A DNA stretch of 64,000 nt. Source: Neoarius graeffei. Lineage: Eukaryota; Chordata; Actinopteri; Siluriformes; Ariidae. The stretch covers positions 38,171,835 through 38,235,834 of the forward strand of contig NC_083589.1 in the NCBI RefSeq assembly GCF_027579695.1, in the 5' to 3' direction. Below the pieces are notes generated by a model. It did not search any database, was not told where the DNA came from, and saw only the letters and a list, made by a program, of their open reading frames with translations. Shown piece by piece: positions 9,875 through 54,100 of the stretch. Both the position numbers and the translations under genes were made by a program. Each line of letters begins with the position of its first letter. Position 1 is the first letter of the stretch.

Positions 9875-10588
9875 AGCTAGCTAATGTCAACAACAGTAGC
9901 TAGTATGTTACTGTAGCAATATTTACGTTCAGTCATTTGGATGACTGTTAAAACCTTTCAGTCTCAAGTTTTTCCTTTACTGGATTTACTAGTTTACTGA
10001 GCTAGCGTGCGATGGCTCCCGGCTCGGCCGGCGAGCGCGCGATGGCTCCCGGCTCGGCCGGAGAGCGCGCGATGGCTCCCGGCTCGGCCGGAGAGCGCGC
10101 GATGGCTCCCGGCTCGGCCGGAGAGCGCGCGATGGCTCCCGGCTCGGCCGGAGAGCGCGCGATGGCTCCCGGCTCGGCCGGAGAGCGCGCGATGGCTCCC
10201 GGCTCGGCCGGAGAGCGCGCGATGGCTCCCGGCTCGGTCGGAGAGCGCGCGATGGCTCCCGGCGCGGTCGGAGAGCGCGCGATGGCTCCCGGCCTGGCCG
10301 GAGAGCGCGCGATGGCTCCCGGCCTGGCCGGAGAGCGCGCGATGGCTCCCGGCCTGGCCGGAGAGCGCGCGATGGCTCCCGGCCTGGCCGGAGAGCGCGC
10401 GATGGCTCCCGGCCTGGCCGGAGAGCGCGCGATGGCTCCCGGTTTGGCCGAGCGCGCTAGCTCAGTAAACTAGTAAATCCAGTAAAGGAAAAACTTGAGA
10501 CTGAAAGGTTTTAACAGTCATCCAAATGACTGAACGTAAACATTGCTACAGTAACATACCAGCTACGATGTTGTTGACATTAGCTAGT
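9875..10588. repeat. Inverted arms framing the minisatellite
   Basis: 9875-10010 and 10453-10588 are near-perfect inverted copies, about 135 bases each (for example gtcatttggatgactgttaa on the left and its complement on the right; gctagctaatgtcaacaaca / tgttgttgacattagctag). They enclose the 30-bp repeats, so this half of the element could form a long stem with the minisatellite as loop. Confidence 0.9.
10011..10455. repeat. 30-bp GC-rich minisatellite, about 15 units
   Basis: Units begin gatggctcccggctcggccg and end gagagcgcgc; 14 are full and the last is partial. Substitutions sort by position: ctcggc in the left units, cctggcc in the right units, gcggtc/ctcggtc between them. This gradient indicates stepwise local duplication. 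The unit length is divisible by three, so all frames stay open (10-residue repeats), but nothing suggests that it is translated. Confidence 0.97.
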
Positions 10589-15800: not shown

Positions 15801-16514
15801 TGAGCTCAAGATAAGCTGGTTGTATACTTCAAATGAAAAAGATGGGGGGTTGAGAAAGAAAGACTCAGTGGTTTCAGTCTTTTGTTCTAAAACCTCCCAA
15901 TGCCCTCTGGTCCAAACATCACATGGTTGTTTGGGTCAGTGCATAAAGTCACAGTTTAATTTCATTGTCATTTGCTTGTTTGCAGCTGGAATATGTTTAC
16001 TTTATACTTTATTATACCTTTCTTTTCTGACGTGTTTCTTTGTTAAATAAACCAACACTACAGCCCACATGTTTCATTGTCACATCCACATCTTTGACAC
16101 TGATGTTCTTCATTATTTGGTCACTGTTTGACAGGGTTGCCAAATGTATGACAAAAGCACAAGCCAAACACAAGCCAAATCCTCATAATAATCAGCTCAT
16201 TTCATATCCTTTACACTGATTTTAATATATAACAGAATTGAAATAAACAATTTCCGAAATAGTTATTTTACAAAGGTCCTAAAGTGATCTTGTAATTTTA
16301 GATATACATAAAGAATAGCTATGAAAATGAGTACACCAGTTTCACTGATGCACAACATAATACAATGATATAGTGCATAATATACATAATATATTGATAC
16401 ACAGTTAATGCTGAGACAAAGGATTCCACATTCCACCCATGGCGGCAGTTCAGAGTAATCTATGGATTCTGGCAACACCATGATGTCATACATGGGTTAG
16501 GTTATCAATTCCTT

Positions 16515-16516
16515 AA

Positions 16517-16547
<31 letters not shown>

Positions 16548-16552
16548 ATAGA
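16515..16552. repeat. AATA microsatellite
   Basis: About nine aaat units just upstream of the SINE; the second copy of the duplicated segment (19650-19668) has only about four, showing length change since duplication. Confidence 0.9.
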
Positions 16553-16557
16553 ATTTT

Positions 16558-16920
16558 GGGGCGGCACAGTGGTGTAGTGGTTAGCGCTGTCGCCTCACAG
16601 CAAGAAGGTCCGGGTTCGAGCCCCATGGCCGGCGAGGGCCTTTCTGTGCGGAGTTTGCATGTTCTCCCCGTGTCCGCGTGGGTTTCCTCCGGGTGCTCCG
16701 GTTTCCCCCACAGTCCAAAGACATGCAGGTTAGGTTAACTGGTGACTCTAAATTGACCGTAGGTGTGAATGGTTGTCTGTGTCTATGTGTCAGCCCTGTG
16801 ATGACCTGGCGACTTGTCCAGGATGTACCCCGCCTCTCGCCCGTAGTCAGCTGGGATAGGCTCCAGCTCGCCTGTGACCCTGTAGAAGGATAAAGCGGCT
16901 ACAGATAATGAGATGAGATA
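16558..16920 (+). mobile_element. Full-length SINE (copy 1 of duplication)
   Basis: Complete head, body and gatga tail. A small deletion removes one gtgagtgtgaat unit relative to the copy at 19674. Confidence 0.93.
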
Positions 16921-17178
16921 TTGATACACAGTTAAAGGGGAATGGACATTAAAATTTGTCCTAAAACTGTTTCCATATCGCGATCTAGCATAAAATTTGC
17001 TTTCTTTTGATATACGGCAAGCTAGTATCCAAATCACAAAATCCAAGATATTTAACAATAACATCGGCAGTAATCGCTATCCCAGTTCGTTTTTTTTTTT
17101 GCTGCCATACGATAATCTGGGCGCCATATTGTGACGTCAGCGCAGTAATCCACTCCGTGTAAACAGCAAGGAAAAGCA

Positions 17179-18885
17179 ATGTCTGACTCGGATGTCAGTG
17201 AAATTAGCGTGGATTTGTCCGAATTTTCAGAAGAATTATCTGATGATAATGGGTTAGAAGAAAGAGAACTTTCACAGGTTCAACCTAGAGATATTCAACC
17301 ATATCAATTTGAACCATATGTGCCAGATACAGAACTCGAAGTGTCTGATGATGAGGAACACATAATTGGCACACCTGAACCCAATATCGAAGTTGACATT
17401 GGTCGCCTACAAAACAATGAATGGTAGGTTTTTGTATCCTAAATAAAAATGAAAAAAGTAAAATTATCTCATAAATCCCCACTTCTGACAACACCAAGTC
17501 AAAGATCATGCACGATGATAGGATTATTGTCAAGCATGTGCATGTTTTTTTTAGCTCTAGTTCATATATGTTTCTCTCCAAGTGAAATTGCAAATCATTC
17601 AAACTTCCAAAATTTATCCTCAATATAACCATACTAAATATCTAACATGTGCTTTCTGGCAAATACTATACACAAGTTCACTAAGATGTGTTTATGTCTG
17701 TTTGAAATTTTCATTGGACCCAAAACATATATAGCCGATAACTTTTGTCAAATTGTAATGCTTGTTTTGGTGTTTTATAGATCTAATTGTATTTTATTCA
17801 TCAATCGGAGCTGAAATATTTGCACGGATTTAGCCCATATTTTGTCCAAAATGCAGAGATGTCAGAAAAGGACTTTCCAAAATAGTGTAACCTATCTGTT
17901 GTGTATTCATAATGGGCCAACTCAGATTTTATTTCAACAAATTTCAGATTATGCTATCACGTTTATTGCATTTAATGATACAAATAAGTATATACATCTG
18001 AACAAAACATATTTATTGATTGATAACATGAAACTATTCAGTGATAAATGTTGTGGTCACAACAGGTGCACTTGTGATCATTGTGAGCCTATGCCCTTGG
18101 TGATAGAATCACAGTGCTGCAAGGAAATAAACCGGGTGAGGCAAGAGATGGAGGAGGCAGGTGTTGACTCGTGCATAACAGACCATCCTGGGTTTGCGCC
18201 ATGTTGTCTCAATCCATATGTCCTGCGGTCAGCCAACTACGCCTTCATTGACCATCATGGACACCACGGGCCTCTACAGGCACATCAACATGAGTATGTA
18301 ACATTATTGTCAATTGTCAATTTTCTGAGCTACTTGCCCACACAACTGTATCCTGCATATTATACTAAAAACATTTAACTTTAACAATCTTTGAATTCAA
18401 ATTTGCTGTGTATACATGTAGGCCCCTACAATTTCTTTCTATAACAACATGTAAAAATAAGTATGTATCATACATCCAGCATAACAAACACTATTTGTTA
18501 TAAAATTTACCGGTAATTTGTATACATGACAATGACCTACTCTGAAATCACCAGATGGCAGCGTTCCTTTCAATTTACAATATACATGTATATCTATGCA
18601 AAAGTTCACAATACAAAATCTAATATTCACTGTTTCAAATTATCAATAGCAACATTAAAAAACGTTTCATTAGCATATCATTTATTGAATACTCTTATTT
18701 ATTTATCCTATTTCAGGAGATACAGATACGTTGCCTATCGACAGTTTGTGAGGCTTTGTTGGGGTCCTCTTGGGAAAGACATCAGAGTCCAGATTCCATC
18801 TTGTGCTGTTAATCGGATCAGAAGAACGTTTCCATCTCCAGATGGAGACTATGTTGGCTTTAAATTTCCCCATTTAACCAACTAA
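17179..18885 (+). CDS. P2X7 ballast-domain-like protein, three exons, apparently intact
   Basis: Exons 17179-17423, 18066-18293 and 18717-18885 join in frame: TG|GTAGGT, CAACAG|G, GA|GTATGT, TTTCAG|G. The product is 213 residues. Exon 1 starts MSDSDVSEIS, is very acidic and carries RDIQPYQFEP and GRLQNNEW. Exon 2 begins WCTCDHCEPM and has ESQCCKEI and a second Cys pair (FAPCCLNP), a zinc-binding-type cysteine pattern. Exon 3 gives VAYRQFVRLCWGPLGKD, IPSCAVNRIRRTFP and GDYVGFKFP before the stop. This order matches the cytoplasmic C-terminal ballast domain of P2X7 receptors (ending in a G.Y.GFK motif), but no transmembrane or channel part precedes it. Function here is unknown. Absence of frameshifts over three exons argues for recent activity or constraint. 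The start is the first in-frame ATG after a stop-containing 5' region. Confidence 0.85.
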
Positions 18886-19030
18886 AGAGGGTTTCAAAAT
18901 AAGTTTGTGCACCTGTTTTTGTGCATAATTTTGTTTTTCCTAATACAGTCTTCGCAATTTTGCAAATAACCAGAATTTCCAATTAATAAAAAATTGATTT
19001 TAAAACTTTCATGAGAGCTACAACTGAATA

Positions 19031-19240
19031 TTAACATAAACCAGGCGTTTCACTGAAACAATCTTTCTCAAAGTGTTCACTACATAGCACTGATGAAGGT
19101 GAAGGCTGCCATTGAGCACGGGTTCGTTGTACTTGTTTTGTCCATAGATTCCTCATATGCGAGTCCTTTGGAAACCTAAAAAGTGTCACATTGTGACTAG
19201 GAATATTACAGCAACCTGCAGCAACACATCGATTCGGCAT
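19031..19240 (-). pseudogene. THAP domain exon (N-terminal part only)
   Basis: The ATG at 19240 starts MPNRCVAAGCCNIPSHNVTL, with the C-x4-C pair, then FRFPKD, RNLW and CSEHFEKDCF (C-x2-H), the C2CH zinc module of THAP DNA-binding domains. About 67 residues are present; the C-terminal end of the domain and the transposase core are missing. A weak GT (CCTG|GTTTATG, near 19043) could be the original donor. It is convergent with the ballast-like gene. The conserved zinc ligands make the assignment firm. Confidence 0.85.
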
Positions 19241-19540
19241 TCTCACATAATATGTAGGGGAATCTACAAAAAAAAAAAAGATTCTGCAACTCAACGCGTA
19301 TAAAGGAATGTAAACATTCATCCGAGAATTTTCCTGGTTACTGCACTGACGTCATAGCCGGCTTCTTCCTGGCGAGTAGAACAGTTTTTGGCGGGGTGCT
19401 TGAATCTGTGATATTTCGAACTATTGTGTCGATTTGTAAAAAAACGATGTGTTTACTGATAAAAACTGCCGTGTATTGGTGGACAAAATATTATAATCTT
19501 TACGAATAAATGAACTTGTGTTGGTCCTTTCTGTATCCCT

Positions 19541-20054
19541 TTAATGCTGAGACAAAGGATTCCACATTCCACCCATGGCGGCAGTTCAGAGTAATCTATG
19601 GATTCTGGCAACACCATGATATCATACATGGGTTAGGTTATCAATCCCTTAATAAATAAATAAATAGAATTTTGGGGTGGCACAGTGGTGTAGTGGTTAG
19701 CGCTGTCGCCTCACAGCAAGAAGGTCTGGGTTCGAGCCCTGTGGCCGGCGAGGGCCTTTCTGTGCGGAGTTTGCATGTTCTCCCCGTGTCCGCGTGGGTT
19801 TCCTCCGGGTGCTCCGGTTTCCCCCACAGTCCAAAGACATGCAGGTTAGGTTAACTGGTGACTCTAAATTGACCGTAGGTGTGAATGTGAGTGTGAATGG
19901 TTGTCTGTGTCTATGTGTCAGCCCTGTGATGACCTGGCGACTTGTCCAGGGTGTACCCCGCCTTTCGCCCATAGTCAGCTGGGATAGGCTCCAGCTTGCC
20001 TGCGACCCTGTAGAACAGGATAAAGCGGCTAGAGATAATGAGATGAGATGAGAC
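19541..20054 (+). repeat. Tandemly duplicated segment, copy 2 (continuation)
   Basis: Sequence from ttaatgctgagacaaagg through the SINE tail parallels 16405-16920 with few differences (atgatatcat versus atgatgtcat, shorter AATA tract). Confidence 0.9.
19674..20054 (+). mobile_element. Full-length SINE (copy 2 of duplication)
   Basis: Head ggggtggcacagtggtgtag through tail gagatgagatgaga; it shares the diagnostic cacagtgg head with the copy at 16558. Confidence 0.93.
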
Positions 20055-42125: not shown

Positions 42126-43729
42126 CAACCCCGATTCCAAAAAAGTTGGGACAAAGTACAAATTGTAAATAAAAACAGAATGCAATAACTTACAAATCTC
42201 AAAAACTGATATTGTATTCACAATAGAACATAGACAACATATCAAATGTCGAAAGTGAGACATTTTGAAATTTCATGCCAAATATTGGCTCATTTGAAAT
42301 TTCATGACAGCAACATATCTCAAAAAAGTTGGGACGGGGCAATAAGAGGCTGGAAAAGTTAAAGGTACAAAAAAGGAACAGCTGGAGGACCAAATTGCAA
42401 CTCATTAGGTCAATTGGCAATAGGTCATTAACATGACTGGGTATAAAAAGAGCATCTTGGAGTGGCAGCGGCTCTCAGAAGTAAAGATGGGAAGAGGATC
42501 ACCAATCCCCCTAATTCTGTGCCGACAAATAGTGGAGCAATATCAGAAAGGAGTTTGACAGTGTAAAATTGCAAAGAGTTTGAACATATCATCATCTACA
42601 GTGCATAATATCATCAAAAGATTCAGAGAATCTGGAAGAATCTCTGTGTGTAAGGGTCAAGGCCGGAAAACCATACTGGGTGCCCGTGATCTTCGGGCCC
42701 TTAGACGGCACTGCATCACATACAGGCATGCTTCTGTATTGGAAATCACAAAATGGGCTCAGGAATATTTCCAGAGAACATTATCTGTGAACACAATTCA
42801 CTGTGCCATCCGCCGTTGCCAGCTAAAACTCTATAGTTCAAAGAAGAAGCCGTATCTAAACATGATCCAGAAGCGCAGACGTCTTCTCTGGGCCAAGGCT
42901 CATTTAAAATGGACTGTGGCAAAGTGGAAAACTGTTCTGTGGGCAGACGAATCAAAATTTGAAGTTCTTTATGGAAATCAGGGACGTCATGTCATTCGGA
43001 CTAAAGAGGAGAAGGACGACCCAAGTTGTTATCAGCGCTCAGTTCAGAAGCCTGCATCTCCGATGGTATGGGGTTGCATTAGTGCATGTGGCATGGGCAG
43101 CTTACACATCTGGAAAGACACCATCAATGCTGAAAGGTATATCCAGGTTCTAGAGCAACATATGCTCCCATCCAGACGACGTCTCTTTCAGGGAAGACCT
43201 TGCATTTTCCAACATGACAATGCCAAACCACATACTGCATCAATTACAGCATCATGGCTGCGTAGAAGAAGGGTCCGGGTACTGAACTGGCCAGCCTGCA
43301 GTCCAGATCTTTCACCCATAGAAAACATTTGGCGCATCATAAAATGGAAGATACGACAAAAAAGACCTAAGACAGTTGAGCAACTAGAATCTTACATTAG
43401 ACAAGAATGGGTTAACATTCCTATCGCTAAACTTGAGCAACTTGTCTCCTCAGTCCCCAGACGTTTACAGACTGTTGTAAAGAGAAAAGGGGATGTCTCA
43501 CAGTGGTAAACATGGCCTTGTCCCAACTTTTGTGAGATGTGTTGTTGTCATGAAATTTAAAATCACCTAATTTTTCTCTTTAAATGATAAATTTTCTCAG
43601 TTTAAACATTTAATATGTCATCTACGTTCTATTCTGAATAAAATATGGAATTTTGAAACTTCCACATCATTGCATTCCGTTTTTATTTACAATTTGTACT
43701 TTGTCCCAACTTTTTTGGAATTGGGGTTG
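42126..43729 (+). mobile_element. Near-intact Tc1 transposon
   Basis: caaccccgattccaaaaaag after TA (42124-42125), inverted ttttggaattggggttg before TA (43730-43731). Inverted repeats of about 200 bases (aaagtacaaattgtaaataa / inverse). 1604 bp. The same family as 51074-52680. Confidence 0.95.
42487..43509 (+). pseudogene. Tc1 transposase, one nonsense codon
   Basis: The start is at 42487 ([20 protein letters not shown]). Codon 24 is TGA (42556-42558) where the sister copy has CGA, a CpG-type change. From there the frame is open for 317 codons: helix-turn-helix ([20 protein letters not shown]), a GRKT AT-hook-like patch, first Asp in [16 protein letters not shown]-equivalent [12 protein letters not shown], second Asp in [12 protein letters not shown], Glu in [13 protein letters not shown]. 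All DD34E residues are present. An internal start after the stop would lose part of the first DNA-binding helix bundle. Confidence 0.92.
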
Positions 43730-51100: not shown

Positions 51101-54100
51101 AAAGTACAAATTGTAAATAAAAACGGAATGCAATGATGTGGAAGTTTCAAAATTCCATATTTTATTCAGAATAGAACATAGATGACATATCAAATGTTTA
51201 AATGATATATTTTCTCAGTTTAAAGAGAAAAATTAGGTGATTTTAAAATTTCATGACAACAACACATCTCAAAAAAGTTGGGACAAGGCCATGTTTCCCC
51301 ACTGTGAGACATCCCCTTTTCTCTTTACAACAGTCTGTAAACGTCTGTGGACTGAGGAGACAAGTTGCTCAAGTTTAGGGATAGGAATGTTAACCCATTC
51401 TTGTCTAATGTAGGATTCTAGTTGCTCAACTGTCTTAGGTCTTTTTTGTCGTATCTTCCGTTTTATGATGCGCCAAATGTTTTCTATGGGTGAAAGATCT
51501 GGACTGCAGGCTGGCCAGTTCAGTACCCGGACCCTTCTTCTACGCAGCCATGATGCTGTAATTGATGCAGTATGTGGTTTGGCATTGTCATGTTGGAAAA
51601 TGCAAGGTCTTCCCTGAAAGAGACGTCGTCTGGATGGGAGCATATGTTGCTCTAGAACCTGGATATACCTTTCAGCATTGATGGTGTCTTTCCAGATGTG
51701 TAAGCTGCCCATGCCACACGCACTAATGCAACCCCATACCATCAGAGATGCAGGCTTCTGAACTGAGCACTGATAACAACTTGGGTCGTCCTTCTTCTCT
51801 TTAGCCCGAATGACACGGCGTCCCTGATTTCCATAAAGAACTTCAAATTTTGATTCATCTGACCACAGAACAGTTTCCCACTTTGCCACAGTCCATTTTA
51901 AATGAGCCTTGGCCCAGAGAAGACGTCTGCGCTTCGGGATCGTGTTTAGATGCGGCTTCTTCTTTGAACTATAGAGTTTTAGCTGGCAACGGCGGATGGC
52001 ACAGTGAATTGTGTTCACAGATAATGTTCTCTGGAAATATTCCTGAGCCCATTTTGTGATTTCCAATACAGAAGCATGCTTGTATGCGATGCAGTGCCGT
52101 CTAAGGGCCCAAAGATCACGGGCACCCAGTATGGTTTTCGGGCCTTGACCCTTACGCACAGAGATTCTTCCAGATTCTCTGAATCTTTTGATGATATTAT
52201 GCACTGTAGATGATTATATGTTCAAACTCTTTGCAATTTTACACTGTCGAACTCCTTTCTGATATTGCTCCACAATTTGTCGGTGCAGAATTAGGGGGAT
52301 TGGTGATCCTCTTCCCATCTTTACTTCTGAGAACTGCTGCCACTCCAAGATGCTCTTTTTATGCCCAGTCATGTTAATGACCTATTGCCAATTGACCTAA
52401 TGAGTTGCAATTTGGTCCTCCAGCTGTTCCTTTTTTGTACCTTTAACTTTTCCAGCCTCTTATTGCCCCTGTCCCAATTTTTTTGAGATATGTTGCTGTC
52501 ATGAAATTCCAAATGAGCCAATATTTGGCATGAAATTTCAAAATGTCTCACTTTCGACATTTGATATGTTGTCTATGTTCTACTGTGAATACAATATCAG
52601 TTTTTGAGATTTGTAAATTATTGCATTCCGTTTTTATTTACAATTTGTACTTTGTCCCAACTTTTTTGGAATCGGGGTTGTACACTTGACTACAGCCTAC
52701 ATGGTAAAAACAGTAAAAGAGCAATTCCAGCGTTATGGACGTGACACTTGAACTCAAAATGGCAACAAATGACCCAGTGCATGTTTTATTGTCTCCCAGT
52801 ATTTAAACAGGTGTTGCATATTTTAAGGCTGTACCATACTGGATAAGTGATAGAACAAGAACAATTCCCATAGTACATCTAGGGCATGCCAGAAAATGCC
52901 AATAAAAGATGCGTTATGGATGTGACAGAAAAAGTATCACTTTTCTTGGGTGACTGTACATTTTTATCAAACTCTGTGAAATTGTAAACCTAATGTCGAA
53001 ATGGAGATATCCATTTGATAGAGGGGTCCAAGGTGAATATTAAATCTTTGTTTAAAATATTTTGAATTTCATGCAGAGTTTCGGAAGGAAAAGTCAGCGT
53101 TATGGATGTGACGAAATTCCGTTATGGACGTGACGCGTCTGAAATAGACATGGCATATGTTTAGAAAATCAGCAATTTAACCACCATAACCCTTTGAAAA
53201 ACTCTCTAAATATCAGCTAAAACTATCAAAAGTTCTTAAATAATATTAAGGATGGCTATTGTTTTGCTGTTTTGTGGATTTTAGCATACATTTCTGTGGC
53301 TTGTGGCAATAATACAGAATTGTACATGATCAAAGTTGATTTTAGCTTGGGTTTTACATTATAAGAAAGAAAGACTGACAGTGACATATTAGGTTGGTTA
53401 CAAATTGGTTCAACTTATTCACATCTGTAAAATACAGGCCTAGGTGATATCTCTGGGAGTGGTTTTGATGTATTACATGTTGCTTTATTTTTGCATGGTG
53501 AGGTTGACATTTACATGGAATTGCCCACAATAAAGATCTTTGCTAAGAGCTCAGTTTAGTGTTAAATAGCGCACACACACACACACAAACACACCTCTTC
53601 ACGTCAAGAGCTTCCTACTCACCAGCAGCGAGTCTAGCAGCTTTGGTAAAGTTTCCGGTCTCGATACACGCAATGAGCTCACTTTTGTCGTCCGTGGTGT
53701 TCCTGCGCACGAGAGCCGGCTTCCCCTTTCCACACTTTGGGAAACCCAGAGGAGCGCTTCTGAGGGAAAGCTTACTGTTAGATCTATAGTGGGTGACAGA
53801 AACACACCAAAGAATCTAAACACATCAACATCACTAAAAATCACGATCACAATGCACACAAGGTTTTATTGAGTGCTGATCTAATGGACATTTACAATAT
53901 GCCAATTTAAGGACGAAAGGTGAGCAGTATATGAAACTAATAAAATCACACACAGCTTGTTTATTGGTTTTGCAGCAGTAAAGGATACCAGTCAAGGGGG
54001 AAAAGGGTGCATCAGTATATTAAACTTCCCTCATCTTCATCACTATTCAGTGTAGATACAGGAAAGTATTTTTTTTCCTGCAGTCTTCATTATAATCAGA

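Follow-up and report, generated by a model that had tools for sequence, protein, structure and literature searches.

A channel-free P2X7 ballast gene in a fish genome is probably the KolX gene of an internally deleted Kol0-type Kolobok transposon

Kol0 elements encode a transposase together with a second protein, KolX, which adopts the ballast fold (Kojima and Bao 2022, PMC9587614), and the accessible text of that paper has P2X7 arising when a P2X4-like gene fused with KolX. Capture of the ballast by P2X7 was proposed by Rump et al. 2020 (PMC7016195), in whose accessible text no word beginning with "transpos" occurs. A TTAA target and 5'-RR/YY-3' ends are features of Kolobok, the RR/YY ends speaking against piggyBac, and a C/DxxH motif is common to Kolobok, hAT, P, MuDR and Dada (PMC9587614). 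THAP domains are usual in Kolobok transposases according to the accessible part of PMC6004289, and the word THAP is absent from PMC9587614, which treats Kol0 and KolX. A literature search for KolX returned Kojima and Bao 2022 (PMC9587614) only, while one for Kolobok with P2X7 returned that paper and a review, in their accessible parts.

Here we analysed a stretch of 64,000 nucleotides of Neoarius graeffei (the window; C22:38171835-38235834), in which a sequence-only reading had noticed a channel-free P2X7 ballast gene inside a TTAA-flanked transposon. That observation is confirmed, and the interpretation attached to it is partly supported. Judging from sequence comparisons, we assign a probability of roughly 0.93 to the reading that the element would derive, by internal deletion, from a Kol0-type Kolobok transposon with two genes. 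The ballast gene does sit in a mobile TTAA element, but the protein is the transposon's own second product, KolX, and not a cargo that the transposon carries. The accompanying thought that P2X7 took its tail from a free-standing ballast protein stands in print as a proposal (accessible text of PMC7016195), and the transposon link had already been published (accessible text of PMC9587614); the origin of P2X7 from KolX is not a new idea, and the window adds another KolX member.

The gene comprises the following features:

17179..17423, plus strand: KolX exon 1, with the acidic N-terminal region and PYQFEP motif (splice model, profile match, alignment)
18066..18293, plus strand: KolX exon 2, with six of the seven zinc cysteines (splice model, rat comparison)
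18717..18885, plus strand: KolX exon 3 and stop codon, with RYRYVAYR...PSC...GFKFP (splice model, profile match)
18985..18990, plus strand: candidate KolX polyadenylation signal AATAAA (from reading the sequence)

On the plus strand of the window, three GT-AG exons join in frame into a protein of 213 aa, and the three-exon model of the sequence-only reading was upheld upon checking its splice sites and frame; one intron splits the W codon of the WCTC motif and the other lies inside the ballast. The assignment to the P2X7 ballast was borne out by a profile search with the product, which scored 68.7 bits with Pfam P2RX7_C (E 8.2e-19; cut-off 23.5 bits); Diphthamide_syn, the single further family in the list, stayed far below its own cut-off (E 0.26). 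In a PDB sequence search at E<=0.001 all three matches were P2X7 (best E 1.1e-5). Neither the product nor any of the 13 other element ORFs scanned matched the P2X channel domain PF00864. All seven zinc cysteines of the rat protein, which we take to be residues 477, 479, 482, 498, 499, 506 and 572, are kept in the window protein (C83, C85, C88, C99, C100, C118 and C187). At the guanine-nucleotide positions R546, H547, R574, R578 and K583, as given in the accessible text of Rump et al. (PMC7016195), the window protein reads R, Y, V, R and S, keeping two of the five (R546 and R578). A PYQFEP-type motif occurs in 29 of 33 alignment rows under the pattern PYxFEP, which was loosened after the alignment had been viewed, and of the four rows that lack it, P0070, P0073 and P0078 are short or have a non-homologous start; as a guess, the acidic tail with this motif may be a docking site. 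Across 243 matched codons, database protein P0002 departs from the window at three places, each within intron 1, and exon 2 showed zero amino-acid differences between the two. A scan of viral contigs with the 213-aa protein gave nine pattern matches, none of them confirmed.

The borders of the element and the site next to it (none with a strand) are:

16405..16408: single TTAA, paralogous empty site, in a tandem-duplicated flank (unit about 16389-16919)
16932..16935: left TTAA target-site duplication (paralogous empty site in the window)
16936..19540: non-autonomous Kolobok (Kol0-type) element of 2,605 bp, ends 5'-AGGGG...CCCT-3' (copies, alignment with a longer copy)
19541..19544: right TTAA target-site duplication (border alignment)

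The gene lies, as had been claimed, wholly within a TTAA-flanked mobile element of about 2.6 kb. TTAA borders by themselves are weak evidence because the 64-kb window holds 439 TTAA sites. The flank of the element, however, is tandem-duplicated in units of ~530 bp, and the other unit holds the site without the element and with one TTAA, so that the window has its own empty-site control; the element either inserted after the duplication or was excised precisely from the other unit. Searching the left 486 bp of the element against the 2.34-Gb genome (38 contigs) gave 26 matches, which we take to represent about 24 copies, namely 4 that span all 486 bases, 18 that end at base 415-417 and 2 that insertions have split. 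We examined 13 copies, the window copy and 12 fetched of the 23 others, and 12 of the 13 are bordered by TTAA on each side, at differing places, the remaining one (L016) having it at the right side only. The genome-wide copy search suggested by the sequence-only reading places the gene in a repeated element with an adjoining empty site, and not in one unique host locus bordered by TTAA by chance. The right tip common to 9 of the 13 copies is TGTATCCCT; in four short copies (L014, L015, L016 and L017) it is CATTCCCCT, the left tip mirrored. A DNA fold of the left 125 bp of the element showed nothing unusual (z 0.72). Across the 64-kb window, an Rfam scan gave no match at the gathering score and a tRNA scan (bacterial code) gave none either. 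Elsewhere in the window, two inverted repeats of 1,185 bp (42322-43506 and 51299-52483, 97% complementary) carry long Tc1/mariner-like ORFs, the one of the two that was scanned matching DDE_3, and a 30-bp minisatellite (9914-10513) has a repeat open in six frames.

The unbroken frame could suggest a host gene, or a domesticated KolX, kept by selection at this locus with the TTAA borders incidental. The intact 213-aa frame and good splice sites fit this explanation, and zebrafish nanor has been proposed as a domesticated KolX (accessible text of PMC9587614); the adjoining empty site and the roughly 24 left-end copies do not. Upon comparing the window copy with those on C7, C14 and C4, we found exons and introns equally diverged, at 15 of 1763 and 27 of 3183 differing positions (0.85% each), in comparisons that all share the window copy and are hence not independent. 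Nonsynonymous and synonymous changes relative to the window numbered 3 and 3 (C7), 4 and 0 (C14) and 4 and 1 (C4); the C4 copy has two stop codons among its four nonsynonymous changes and lacks the end of exon 3, and the C14 copy has lost 15 nt, in frame, from the PYQFEP region. Selection maintaining the KolX frame is not supported by this dN/dS check across copies, given the equal divergence of exons and introns. The frame is indeed open in the window copy, as the sequence-only reading had stressed, but its openness is not evidence of function, because exon and intron divergence are equal and a sibling copy is broken. The same equality, together with the broken siblings, argues against a domesticated gene at the window locus, and we regard a selected host gene as very improbable. 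The shortened copies carry a drifting KolX, and the window copy is young. Separately, exon 2 and intron 2 (window 18066-18716) are nearly constant against the three siblings, with 2 of 684 and 0 of 1262 positions differing and 7 gap columns besides in one sibling, as compared with 10 of 720 in exon 1 and 27 of 1921 in intron 1. The constancy of intron 2 might stem from gene conversion or from a hidden site.

A remnant of the transposase, overlooked by the sequence-only reading, lies at the other end of the element:

19034..19240, minus strand: THAP-domain stub of 69 aa left from the transposase (truncated; it covers positions 1-62 of the 87 in the profile and stops at the deletion junction)
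19037..19039, no strand: junction of a 4.28-kb internal deletion, with a 3-bp overlap TAA (alignment with the long copy L010)

The stub was found by profile search at E 8.5e-13, and the earlier view of the element as non-autonomous holds, the transposase being reduced to this truncated piece. The long copy L010 on C7 measures 6,881 bp and carries KolX, a complete THAP domain and transposase motifs. It aligns with bases 1-2104 of the window element at 98.7% and with bases 2102-2605 at 97.6%, and holds 4.28 kb extra between the two blocks, so that the window element would be an internal deletion of a Kolobok (Kol0-type) transposon; the DDE core is missing from the window element and would fall within the deleted part. 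The extra segment of L010 supplies the remainder of the THAP domain and a transposase-like ORF. The THAP domain of L010 (L010:370-774) covers 87 of 87 profile positions at E 3e-17, and a 322-aa ORF matches a Mutator-like transposase (PF20700) at E 1e-5 with 25.2 bits, under the cut-off of 26.5, while five other transposase-side ORFs that were scanned gave no match above cut-off. The motifs GDGR, DVWH and SLEAFH are present in that order in separate frames, KolX and the transposase facing each other. L010 reads TNRH at a place that we take to be TDRH, with N at the presumed second acidic residue of the transposase core, and it may itself be inactive, to judge from its sequence. Among the shortened copies that retain KolX sequence (the window copy, L009 and L011), the breaks differ in all three. 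A similar KolX-like layout occurs in L059, from another ballast-exon family of the genome, which has on its plus strand an exon-3 type ORF (P2RX7_C, E 9.5e-9) and a WCTC-bearing ORF without Pfam match, and on its minus strand a THAP ORF (E 1.7e-13).

The TTAA target would also suit a piggyBac-type element, and KolX-like proteins have been reported in a few piggyBac families (PMC9587614). Yet the termini of the element are AG...CT, fitting the 5'-RR...YY-3' rule of Kolobok as against piggyBac (PMC9587614), the element contains a THAP domain, and all seven cysteines are present here, whereas the piggyBac-borne proteins are without most of them (PMC9587614); an assignment to piggyBac is exceedingly unlikely.

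A further feature is an inverted 17-mer, TGACGTCAGYGCAGTAA, 196 and 186 bases from the element ends:

17132..17148, plus strand: subterminal CRE-like 17-mer TGACGTCAGCGCAGTAA, ending 30 bp before the KolX ATG
19338..19354, minus strand: inverted partner of the 17-mer, 16 of 17 bases identical, ending 97 bp before the THAP ATG

Its score was reached by none of 300 end pairs resampled with a first-order Markov model. The 17-mer is present at both ends of all 12 other fetched copies, and so of all 13 with the window, with at most one mismatch per end in the fetched copies and four mismatches in all, each a C to T or G to A change in its CpG; in L020 the left 17-mer is displaced by an insertion. 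The 17-mer contains what we take to be the CRE palindrome; it may serve as a promoter element common to both genes or as a site for the transposase. Short copies that retain only the ends retain both 17-mers, which inheritance alone could explain.

The history suggested by these copies is that of a long form of 6.9 kb with two facing genes, KolX running from the left end and a THAP-type transposase from the right, KolX being small and combining an acidic tail with a ballast domain of seven cysteines. A join at 3-bp microhomology would have removed 4.28 kb, taking the transposase past part of its THAP domain and leaving both ends and KolX whole. The window copy would then move only with transposase supplied from elsewhere, and KolX, given its pairing with a transposase, is most likely a transposition accessory. 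The open frame would be a leftover of the recent deletion, with no sign of host use.

Less expected were the 17-mer near both ends of 13 of 13 copies and the identity of the nearest named full-length relative, a hemichordate KolX. The best full-length match of the window KolX was to Ptychodera flava (53% over 99%), in a search that admitted lengths of 0.55-1.75 times the query and in which full receptors could not appear. The two pair with support of 99/92 in a 36-row tree and 97/95 in a 24-row tree, and the window KolX does not group with other fish KolX; the rows were hand-picked (33 of 65 ballast proteins in the larger tree and 18 of these in the smaller), short pieces, P0080 and P0023 being left out. 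AU tests weakly rejected a group of all fish KolX rows (p 0.019) and one that joins three other fish rows to the window (p 0.030), the p values being lenient because the groups were named after the tree had been viewed. One reading of the pairing would be horizontal transfer and another old, patchily lost lineages. The protein pieces P0080 and P0023 are closer than Ptychodera to the window (58/75 and 45/54 residues against 41/75 and 37/49), which argues against a simple transfer story. The combined proposal that the KolX lineage reached fish by horizontal transfer among marine deuterostomes, and that the 17-mers drive or mobilise both facing genes while KolX-only deletion copies still give KolX in trans, strikes us as speculative and rather unlikely.

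With regard to fold, we obtained an AlphaFold model of the Ptychodera relative P0001, not of the window protein, from an alignment of 23 KolX (pLDDT 72.3, pTM 0.62; N-terminal third of low confidence). Its 14 best PDB matches were all P2X7 (E 5.9e-4 to 9.8e-3, the next at E 3.5), with TM-scores by query of 0.30-0.42 and rmsd of 3.6-11.1. The position of P2X7 itself varied. It grouped with nanor-type fish KolX in the 36-row tree (99/95), on a long branch (3.49); its grouping with the window is not rejected by the AU test (p 0.176); and upon adding ballast genes of the same genome in the 24-row tree it stood next to those on C18 and C1 (93/95, with a long-branch warning). We do not conclude that P2X7 is sister to nanor-type KolX, the two trees disagreeing and the P2X7 branch being long.

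The shared domain, in ballast trees that have no outgroup root, would also be compatible with transfer in the opposite direction, a P2X7 fragment having been picked up by the transposon as cargo. Against this, KolX-type proteins occur well outside the vertebrates, presumably in hemichordates, molluscs, echinoderms, nemerteans and a pycnogonid, as judged from the length-limited search that could return no full receptors. The accessible text of Rump et al. 2020 (PMC7016195) adds that ballasts outside vertebrates are not tied to P2X architecture, that agnathans and chondrichthyans have no typical P2X7, and that exon 13 of P2X7 holds the cysteine region, whereas an intron splits the ballast region here. 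Captured cargo is extremely improbable, and we retain the reading of KolX as the transposon's own gene. Two database proteins, P0070 and P0073, run unbroken through the second intron site, so KolX lineages without intron 2 seem to exist, unless these two were derived from transcripts. Intron 2 might thus help to mark the lineage that donated the P2X7 ballast.

Whole-genome searches, in which 150 of 245 ballast candidates were scored, gave at least 124 P2RX7_C matches at E<=1e-3 and 38 matches to P2X channel exons, which we grouped into 7 loci. Among the matches listed, none to the ballast lies within 1.9 Mb of the P2X channel loci and we saw no P2X7 gene linked to a ballast, a miss being possible. 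The best listed ballast match of the genome (L051:1431-1907, minus strand; C18:32477945-32478322; E 3.9e-25) is an exon open in a single frame over 159 aa, and inspection by eye of ~8 kb upstream revealed no P2X-like ORF; it belongs either to a ballast gene that has no channel or to a P2X7 whose tail lies far from the channel part. On C1, at 85.0-93.9 Mb, six matches to the last ballast exon lie on one strand over 9 Mb. The exon ORFs of four C1 loci (L053, L054, L055 and L056) agree at 93-99 of 101 residues, each with a WCVC-bearing ORF upstream.

Overall, the genome shows the KolX family in several forms: a long two-gene copy, deletion copies that keep KolX sequence, copies reduced to their ends and an adjoining empty site. 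This series makes two questions testable, namely the role of KolX in transposition and the lineage that gave P2X7 its ballast.

Among described systems, the Xenopus T2-MITE/XKol elements share with the window family a TTAA target, AGGRR-type ends and a THAP transposase (accessible part of PMC6004289); P2X7 and the ballast receive no mention in that paper. The Kol0 lineage, compared by its published description (Kapitonov and Jurka, cited in PMC9587614), has the same TTAA target and RR/YY ends as the window element and, like the window family, a transposase with a separate ballast protein and vertebrates among its hosts, the window copy differing in the loss of the transposase core. The P2X7 ballast (PDB 6u9v, 9e3m) shares with the window KolX the seven zinc cysteines, AYR and GFKxP at 32-35% identity, whereas the window protein has no channel, keeps two of the five guanine-nucleotide residues (not H547, R574 or K583) and has an acidic N-terminal tail with PYQFEP. 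Zebrafish nanor-b (P0064) is, like the window KolX, a channel-free ballast protein of ~200 aa with PYQFEP, 43% identical over the ballast; nanor is treated as a host gene and proposed to be a domesticated KolX (accessible text of PMC9587614), whereas the window gene resides in a recent mobile element.
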